From contig NZ_KB889596.1 of assembly GCF_000372745.1 (NCBI RefSeq), positions 62,001-126,000 of the forward strand: a stretch of 64,000 nucleotides of DNA. Reading direction: 5' to 3'. Shown one piece after another: positions 15,031 through 17,393 of this stretch. Positions within the stretch are counted from its first letter, which is position 1, and each line of letters opens with the position of its first letter. This DNA comes from Embleya scabrispora DSM 41855. GTDB lineage: Bacteria > Actinomycetota > Actinomycetes > Streptomycetales > Streptomycetaceae. The position numbers and the translations under genes are program-made. The notes beneath the pieces are model-generated. The model was not told the DNA's origin. It was given only the letters and a program-made list of their open reading frames with translations, and ran no database searches.

Positions 15031-15396
15031 ATGCGACTCACCCACATGCGACTGCTGCCCTACCCCCGCTCCAAGTCCCCCGCCGATCCCGACCCCGGCC
15101 TCGCCCCCGGCGGCCCCGCCCCCGGCCCGATCCCCGTCGCCGAGGACCCACCCGCCCCCGCGCCGCCCTCCCTCGGCTCCGTGGTTCGCCGCACCCTGGC
15201 CCCCGCCGCCACCCACGCCGGCACCGTCCAGACCCGCGGCTTCCACACCGTCTACGCGCTCGCCACGCTCCCGCTGGTGATCGCCCTCCATGCCGCCCTC
15301 TGGGCGTTGTCCACCCCCGGGCGCCTCGGCGCCACCCTCCTGGTCCTGTACGGCCTAGGCCGAACCGGGATCCTCACCGCGCACGCCACACACTGA
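15031..15396 (+). CDS. Small membrane protein with Pro-rich N-terminus
   Basis: 121-residue protein of unknown function. The first 50 residues are extremely Pro/Ala/Gly-rich (PGPIPVAEDPPAPAPPSLG), followed by a linker and two hydrophobic segments, YALATLPLVIALHAALWAL and LGATLLVLYGLGRTGIL. Two in-frame ATGs lie 15 bases apart in a duplicated ATGCGACT context; the first has GGGGAG upstream. It is followed 25 bases later by another tiny membrane protein and then an FtsK-like ATPase, an arrangement reminiscent of the Spd/Tra sets of Streptomyces integrative elements. That similarity is structural inference only. Confidence 0.7.
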   Translation: MRLTHMRLLPYPRSKSPADPDPGLAPGGPAPGPIPVAEDPPAPAPPSLGSVVRRTLAPAATHAGTVQTRGFHTVYALATLPLVIALHAALWALSTPGRLGATLLVLYGLGRTGILTAHATH

Positions 15397-15421
15397 GTGC
15401 GCAGCCCGAAGGAGCACCCCC

Positions 15422-15616
15422 ATGGTTCTGTCCGTCTCCGGCGTTCTGCTGCTCGGCGTCATCGCCTACGTCCTCTTCCGCAAGGACGGGCTGAGACTCC
15501 CGCATGCCCTCGTCTGTGCCCTCTTCGGGTTCTACCTGGCCGGCAGCTCGATCGCCCCGAACATCGCCGCGAGCGGCGACAGCATCGCCAATCTGCTCAG
15601 CGGCCTCAACTTCTGA
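15422..15616 (+). CDS. Small membrane protein, two helices
   Basis: 64-residue protein with an N-terminal hydrophobic helix (VLSVSGVLLLGVIAYVLF) and a second one (LVCALFGFYLAGSSIAPNI), separated by a short basic loop RKDGLR. No characterised homologue is recognised. GAAGGAG lies eight bases before the ATG. The position directly before the FtsK-like ATPase gene suggests a membrane partner of that ATPase; the long inverted repeat at 15641-15746 separates the two and may reduce read-through. Confidence 0.72.
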   Translation: MVLSVSGVLLLGVIAYVLFRKDGLRLPHALVCALFGFYLAGSSIAPNIAASGDSIANLLSGLNF

Positions 15617-15640
15617 CCGGCCACCTCGTCCCCACCGCCG

Positions 15641-15746
15641 CCAGGGCGTGTCTTCGAACGCCCGCCGGACGAGCCGCGACACCCGCGACACCACGACACG
15701 GTGCCGAGGGCCGCGGATCCGGCGGGCGTTCGAAGACACGCCCTGG
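15641..15746. repeat. 29-bp perfect inverted repeat, MITE-like or terminator
   Basis: Arms at 15641-15669 and 15718-15746 are perfectly complementary over 29 bases, with outer ends beginning CCAGGGCGTGTCTTCGAA and a 48-base spacer. Such long perfect arms exceed what a terminator needs and look like the terminal repeats of an insertion sequence or a miniature inverted-repeat element. No flanking target-site duplication is evident. It lies between the 64-residue membrane protein and the FtsK-like gene, so in RNA it would form a very stable stem 57 bases before the ribosome-binding site. Confidence 0.8.
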
Positions 15747-15812
15747 CCCCGGCTCACCCCCCCCCGAACCGGGGCCTTTCGCCTGCCCGCATCAACCCCT
15801 CACGGAGACCGC

Positions 15813-17393
15813 ATGTCCGCCGGCCCCAAATCCCTCGCCGCCATCGCCCTGCGCGCCAAGGACGGCATCGGCAACACCCGCGCCCGCGCCCACCGCATCA
15901 GCCACCACACCCGGGACACCTTCTCCCCCGTGTTCACTCTCAGCCGAGGTCTGAGCCGGCAATTCGCGTGGGCGCGCAACTGGTGGAAGAGCGCCTCGGC
16001 GGACCGGCGCAAGGCCGGTGCCGCCGCTGCCGCCGCGGTCCTGCTCGCCCTCTATTTCCTGCCCTATGCCCCGCTGATCGCGCTGCTCCTGGTCCTGGCC
16101 GGCGCCGCCTGGCTCGGCCGTGCCGAGAAGCCTCACCCCGATTCCGACGCCGATCCCATCGACGTCAAACTCCAGGCCGTCTACAACGGCCTGGTCCCCC
16201 ACTTCGCCGACGACCACGACCCCGCCCGGCTGTTCCACCCCGGCGGCCCGTACCGGAACGCCTTCCGACACTGGGAACTCGACGGCGACCGGATCGTCCG
16301 CCTCGAACTGACCTACAGCCCCTACTTCACCGACGACGACCCCGCCGCCCGGGCCCGGATCGAACGAGTGCTCCAAGCCAAGACCGGCCGCGGTCGCGAA
16401 TACCTCTACGAGTGGGACACCGAGAACAACCACCTCACCCTCGCCGCCCTGCCCCCGCTGCCCACGGCCGTACCCGCCCAGCAGTTCGTCACCGCGCCGC
16501 GCGAAATCCTGCTCGGCATCACCGACGCCGGCAGCACCAATCGGCGCATCCCCGTGCACGTGGACGACACCATCCGGCAACTCCCGCCCGTCATCTGGCG
16601 CACCGGCAGTCGCAGCACCGACCCGCACCTGCTCGCCGTCGCCGCCCCCGGCGCGGGCAAGTCCAACCTGCTGCGCACCATCGCCCTCCAGGCCGCCCGT
16701 GACGGCGACATCGTGGTCATCGACGGCAGCGGCTCCGGCGACTACGCGTGCCTGGCCGGCCGGCACAACATCCTGCGAATCGAGACCGGCTACCACGGTG
16801 CGCTGGAAACCCTGACCTGGCTGCGCCACGAGACCGAACGCCGGATCGCCGCCGTCACCTGCGCCAAGCAACACGGCACCCCGGTCCCGGACAACGCCCG
16901 CCGCCCGCTGTGGGTGATCCTCGACGAGATCACCGAACTCTCCGACCTCGCCGCCGGCCAGGGCACCACCGACCCCCAGGAACTGCTCGACCTCCCGCTG
17001 CGCCTGGGTCGCGCCGCGCACATCGGCGTGATCACCAGCGTCCGCCCCACCCACCTGGAGCGGCTGCGCCCCGCGCTGATCGCCGACACGCACGCCCGGG
17101 TCGTCCTGGGTCCGCTCGACCCGCAGACCACGCTCACCGTGCTGGGCGCCGGTCCCGGCGTCTCCGGCGGCGAGGACATGCCCCCCGGTCGCGGCTACGT
17201 CCGAATCGGCAACGGTCCCGTGGTGCGCATCCAGATCCCGCACACCCCCGACCCGCTGGAGGAGGACACCCCGGAGGCCGAGCGCCGGCGCCTGCTCGCG
17301 CTCCTGCCCCGACACACCGACGCCCTCCCCGTCGCCGTGCCCTCGATCTCGCTCGCCAAGGCACCCGAACGCGAGCCCGAACCCACCGGCTGA
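15813..17393 (+). CDS. FtsK/SpoIIIE-type AAA ATPase
   Basis: 526-residue membrane-linked ATPase. After a basic N-terminus comes one hydrophobic hairpin (residues 69-101), then a linker domain and an FtsK-like motor with Walker A APGAGKSN at 278-285 and Walker B VILDEITEL around Asp371/Glu372. It lacks the C-terminal gamma winged helix of FtsK. GGAG precedes the ATG at 15813; the longer open frame crosses the inverted repeat. Proteins of this size in streptomycetes include double-stranded DNA translocases such as Tra of conjugative elements and chromosomal relatives of unknown role. DNA translocation at the membrane is the likeliest activity. Confidence 0.88.
   Translation: MSAGPKSLAAIALRAKDGIGNTRARAHRISHHTRDTFSPVFTLSRGLSRQFAWARNWWKSASADRRKAGAAAAAAVLLALYFLPYAPLIALLLVLAGAAWLGRAEKPHPDSDADPIDVKLQAVYNGLVPHFADDHDPARLFHPGGPYRNAFRHWELDGDRIVRLELTYSPYFTDDDPAARARIERVLQAKTGRGREYLYEWDTENNHLTLAALPPLPTAVPAQQFVTAPREILLGITDAGSTNRRIPVHVDDTIRQLPPVIWRTGSRSTDPHLLAVAAPGAGKSNLLRTIALQAARDGDIVVIDGSGSGDYACLAGRHNILRIETGYHGALETLTWLRHETERRIAAVTCAKQHGTPVPDNARRPLWVILDEITELSDLAAGQGTTDPQELLDLPLRLGRAAHIGVITSVRPTHLERLRPALIADTHARVVLGPLDPQTTLTVLGAGPGVSGGEDMPPGRGYVRIGNGPVVRIQIPHTPDPLEEDTPEAERRRLLALLPRHTDALPVAVPSISLAKAPEREPEPTG

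Follow-up and report, generated by a model that had tools for sequence, protein, structure and literature searches.

The 106-bp hairpin that separates two conserved genes in the 64,000-nucleotide stretch of Embleya scabrispora DSM 41855 DNA analyzed here (the window) very probably belongs to a family of MITEs whose ends are of the IS5 type. Its ends are common to a dispersed family, copies of which are present or absent between related species, and the same ends are found on transposase-bearing insertion sequences in other bacteria. The class of element, its mechanism and its target preference are already known; the family looks new.

Structure and position of the hairpin

Direct reading of the window gives a perfect 29-bp inverted repeat at 15641-15669 and 15718-15746 that encloses a core of 48 bases, just as an earlier note on this DNA had described it. 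The left arm reads CCAGGGCGTGTCTTCGAACGCCCGCCGGA and the right arm is its exact reverse complement. The statements of that note that the core holds no transposase and that no target duplication is seen are likewise borne out by the letters: the flank tetranucleotides, CCAG on the left and CTGG on the right, are not direct duplicates, and 98 bp lie between them. The features of the region are:

15422..15616, + strand: small hydrophobic protein, 64 aa, conserved; upstream neighbor of the hairpin
15641..15644, + strand: left flank tetranucleotide CCAG; the best-preserved family copy has CTAG at the same place
15645..15669, + strand: left terminal inverted repeat GGCGTGTCTTCGAACGCCCGCCGGA; arm model E 4.8e-7, the arm itself being in the training set
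15670..15717, + strand: core, 48 bases, without transposase
15718..15742, - strand: right terminal inverted repeat, matching the reverse complement of the left arm exactly; arm model E 1.1e-7, this arm also being a training arm
15743..15746, + strand: flank tetranucleotide on the right, CTGG; it is complementary to CCAG on the left
15745..15776, + strand: hairpin GGCCCCGG...CCGGGGCC, directly downstream of the element, with GG in common with its flank
15813..17393, + strand: ATPase-like gene, 526 aa, conserved; downstream neighbor of the hairpin

When the whole window was scanned for inverted repeats (arms of at least 18 nt, spacing of at most 300), the 106-bp hairpin ranked first among 14 close pairs; the scan extended its arms to 35 nt at 94% complementarity, compared to 74-92% in the other 13 pairs. 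For the 196-nt intergenic region the folding energy is -109.7 kcal/mol; 200 shuffles gave -77.6 +/- 4.7, and none of them was as low (z -6.8). The Rfam search returned a single match, at 20.4 bits against a gathering score of 90, and a search of 15300-16000 for a GC-rich stem followed by a T-run, the pattern of an intrinsic terminator, gave no match. The smaller hairpin directly downstream was found at the corresponding place in all three genus relatives examined (G001, G002 and G003), so we take it to be older flanking sequence outside the element.

The hairpin had been placed earlier between a tiny membrane gene and an FtsK-like gene. The location stands. "FtsK-like" was the reader's own label: the downstream ATPase-like protein contains GAPGAGKSN and has no Pfam match at E 0.001. 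This protein has matches at E<=0.001 in all 121 family genomes searched, its own included; in 118 the best E is at most 1e-30, and orthologous gaps can therefore be compared. A small, conserved hydrophobic protein with an FFRKDG-like motif precedes the ATPase-like gene in the nine genomes looked at.

In being short, ending in terminal inverted repeats and lacking a transposase gene, the hairpin resembles other MITEs. With a core of 48 bases it carries no DDE transposase that would make it an IS5 family member in its own right. The missing target-site duplication is not counted against a MITE, since such duplications can be lost by mutation.

Copies in the genus and sites that lack them

The full 106 bp are single-copy in the Embleya scabrispora assembly (11.39 Mb, 190 contigs), and two weak partial matches pointed to a wider family. 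The pattern RGGCGTGTCTTCRAW, with one mismatch allowed, matched this genome 30 times, compared to once for the reversed control, and at least 5 of the 30 look like chance. Among the loci behind these matches are hairpin elements that measure roughly 47 to 191 bp with their flank tetranucleotides, as well as single arms and chance-like matches. A sequence-only arm model was built from 19 arms, all of them from this genome and among the model's own matches there; the other 11 pattern loci were omitted as doubtful, too short or truncated. At E<=0.1 the model identified 34 arms at 26 places in the genome, 8 of these places being paired and 18 having one arm only. In the relatives it matched 17 arms in G001, 6 in G002 and one, weakly (E 0.019), in G003; at E<=0.001 the numbers are 26 in the genome itself (G000) and 10, 6 and 0 in G001, G002 and G003. 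Single arms are many, and the minimal paired forms are about 39-60 bp. The window element aligns with a paired copy in G001 (C30) at 72% over 103 bases. The window hairpin has its ends and some of its inner sequence in common with other copies, but not the exact 106 bp. The multiple copies that the earlier note had proposed to look for exist, then, for the ends and not for the whole repeat; the recurrence of the ends and of part of the inner sequence differs from the outcome named there as favoring a terminator, a single copy conserved in place.

The best-preserved copy, 167 bp at C36:15849, reads CTAG-GGCGTGTCTTC...GAAGACACGCC-CTAG, or in longer notation CTAG-GGCGTGTCTTCAATCCCCC...GGGGGATTGAAGACACGCC-CTAG. 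Parts of PMC5493358 report that IS5 duplicates Py-T-A-Pu, most often CTAG. Of the 15 paired elements compared within the genus, two are flanked by direct duplicates (CTAG and CCGG). The flank tetranucleotides are reverse-complementary in three, namely the same self-complementary CTAG and CCGG pairs and the CCAG/CTGG of the window, and they differ in the remaining 12.

The flanks of seven copies from the Embleya scabrispora genome were searched in the genus, and two comparisons were readable, C36:15849 and C172; the junctions at C136, C166, C2 and C116 were unreadable and the flanks of C128 matched different contigs. At C36:15849 a gene ends in CTAG (GTG CGC TAG), and the copy starts within that CTAG. 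Its orthologs in G001 and G002 read GTG CGG TGA with no element behind, and the bases after the stop align loosely. At C172, G001 and G002 have the copy in diverged form; in G003 the site is a bare CTAG. The single arm at C180 is missing from both orthologs, in G001 and G002. At the window site of G003, the GGCCCCGG...CCGGGGCC hairpin begins about 38 bases past the stop codon of the upstream gene and follows CCGCCGCA; no further large hairpin precedes it. The empty flank, CAGGCCCCGG, is compatible with more than one choice of target bases. Sites without the element, the other check that had been proposed, are accordingly found in relatives for C36:15849, for C180 and, in G003, for the window site. 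The early suggestion of a possible MITE gains support from this presence and absence and from the dispersed family.

The gap orthologous to that of the window contains an unrelated hairpin in the two other relatives, common to both and with one match per genome:

G001:C26:272491-272559 and G002:C1:479501-479569: hairpin CGCCTCGGCGTACCGG...CCGGTGCGCCGAGGCG, in the orthologous gap

We considered this hairpin as a decayed copy of the window element and rejected it, as in eight tests its alignment score was reached by 93 to 315 of 500 shuffles. There is also one match to its first 25 bases at G000:C126. In these two genomes, a non-aligned stretch (G002:C1:4330900-4331900 and G001:C56:75300-76300) contains a different repeat, roughly GGCCGGCCTCCGGCC..GGTTGTCCTCAAACGCCGGACGGGCTGG, in several successive copies.

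Ends shared with IS5-type insertion sequences

No cognate transposase was found in the Embleya scabrispora assembly among 21 PF13340 places, some of them at contig ends, which were scanned for arms at up to 2 or 3 mismatches within roughly 1.5 kb to either side, or as far as the contig reached. Only one, on C180, has an arm at <=2 mismatches nearby. The DUF4096 fragment there was rejected as a relic of the parent insertion sequence, since G001 and G002 also carry that fragment with its flanks but lack the arm. This transposase fragment (G000:C180:51425-51697) is found at one and the same place in three of the genus's species and is possibly an old, fixed relic.

Within the family, CNAGGGCGTGTCTTCRAW is present in 8 of 394 genomes, some of which contain paired elements, 60-240 bp long and often with CTAG flanks. 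In one family genome (G167) the left end stands directly ahead of an IS5-type frame (Pfam DUF4096, 4.1e-28); the right end, TTTGAAGACAACTCC, matches less well. In another genome (G306) three contigs (L152, L158 and L162) break off no more than about 40 bases from CTAGGGCGTGTCTTCAAAGGCTG, the pattern that an insertion sequence with such ends would give if present in multiple copies.

In the wider genome collection, 61 of the 115 terminus loci among the matches listed have an inverted partner (at most 2 of 14 bases different) within 1 kb, compared to 3 in a direct-orientation control, and 54 have none. CTAG flanks both sides in 29 of these 61 loci, and 6 of the 61 are 847 bp in length; all of these counts rest on the matches listed and are neither totals nor frequencies. 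The loci listed come from Psychrobacter, Saccharibacillus, Paenibacillus, Streptomyces, Kitasatospora, Myxococcales and others, and no partner was seen for the Kitasatospora locus. Two of the 847-bp elements, from Psychrobacter immobilis (L269) and P. nivimaris (L313), contain two transposase frames each, and those of P. nivimaris match DUF4096 (2.5e-22) and DDE_Tnp_1 (6.1e-23) in Pfam. It is through the 847-bp Psychrobacter element that the family has ends in common with an autonomous insertion sequence: the terminus GGCGTGTCTTCAAT and the CTAG flanks are the same, whereas the window copy has no transposase and only 98 bp between its flank tetranucleotides. The IS5-family group with these ends is presumably IS427. 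The earlier impression that the arms resemble streptomycete insertion sequences holds insofar as the ends belong to an IS5-type group, but the group also extends far outside the streptomycetes.

Paired short elements of 53-466 bp are found among the matches listed in Streptomyces, Saccharibacillus, Psychrobacter and a Myxococcales MAG. In these, as in the paired elements of the family genomes, the ends are identical to those of the window family or within 2 of 14 bases, and CTAG often flanks them, but the inner sequences look unrelated by eye. As portrayed in portions of a review (PMC10969869), prokaryotic type II MITEs resemble insertion sequences at their ends only, measure 50-500 bp, lack genes and have terminal inverted repeats, all of which is matched here. 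Length variants and truncated forms are described there for the QMITE and Chunjie families, as in the present one. Unlike the type II MITEs of those portions, the window element has arms that are perfect over 29 bp, and its family has minimal forms of about 39-60 bp. The words Streptomyces, actinobacteria and Frankia do not occur in the main text of that review, and literature searches by word and by terminus letters, at the level of the titles listed, gave no description of the family in Embleya or, likewise, in Psychrobacter.

Origin of the hairpin and agreement between its arms

The window copy itself, whose CCAG/CTGG flanks are not a direct duplication, probably arrived by insertion as a mobile element. 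Its movement would have depended on a putative IS5-type transposase acting in trans, and the copy may still be able to move. Its strong stem could affect transcription between the neighboring genes.

A hairpin native to the gene pair, kept for its RNA structure as a terminator or for mRNA stability, is unlikely, although the stem is very stable, its CCAG/CTGG ends are complementary and G001 and G002 carry another large hairpin in the same gap. That other hairpin aligns with the one in the window no better than shuffles do, and G003 has no such hairpin. In all four species the separate GGCCCCGG/CCGGGGCC hairpin already stands in the gap, no terminator-like stem with a T-run was found in 15300-16000 of the window, and recurrence of the ends at 26 places is not what a structure belonging to one gene pair would lead us to expect.

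It is a little less probable still that the arms are two abutting ends left over from a deleted full-length insertion sequence, which never moved as a unit. Such remnants would account for a core without transposase and for the single arms at 18 of the 26 places, but not for inner sequence held in common with another paired copy, nor for paired short copies of several sizes at different sites. Shortness, palindromic form, minimal forms of about 39-60 bp and the many single arms would also suit a REP-type extragenic palindrome, moved by a REP-associated tyrosine transposase instead of an IS5-type enzyme; the coincidence of the ends with those of IS5-type insertion sequences, and the CTAG flanks, make this highly improbable. 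A MITE with IS5-type ends remains the preferred reading.

The two arms of a MITE in this family resemble each other more than they do the arms of other copies. We compared the first 19 arm bases in the 15 paired elements, which were chosen by the analyst (8 from the Embleya scabrispora genome, 6 from G001 and 1 from G002), with right arms placed by the consensus and not by the left arm. Within elements the arms agree at 252 of 285 positions, a figure that includes two 39-bp forms whose loops touch the last compared positions and a doubtful pair on C14 of G001. When arms were re-paired by permutation, agreement was 221.4 +/- 3.9, and 252 was reached in 0 of 20,000 trials. Twelve departures from the consensus are common to both arms of one element, including a G at position 16 in the window copy, and 29 occur in one arm (7 in the left only and 22 in the right only).

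Template switching is described in parts of PMC8604942, PMC7202029 and PMC8794818 as homogenizing the arms of inverted repeats. Subfamily ends passed on by descent, or selection for pairing, may also contribute to the agreement seen here; since inherited subfamily ends also make arms agree, the arm test alone does not show conversion. As a tentative proposal, which we hold to be possible and rather doubtful, the arms would evolve in concert after insertion: copying templated by the hairpin, or selection on paired RNA, would rewrite one arm, and with it even the flanking target bases, so as to match the other, in this case turning CTAG...CTAG into CCAG...CTGG.

These results add a MITE family to the genus Embleya, and one IS5-type terminus with short paired elements is seen to recur in several phyla. 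The agreement of arms within elements provides a natural data set on the homogenization of inverted repeats by template switching. If arms do evolve in concert, target duplications would be erased, the ends of MITEs would stay usable by the transposase, and inserted MITEs would become stable hairpins at gene borders.
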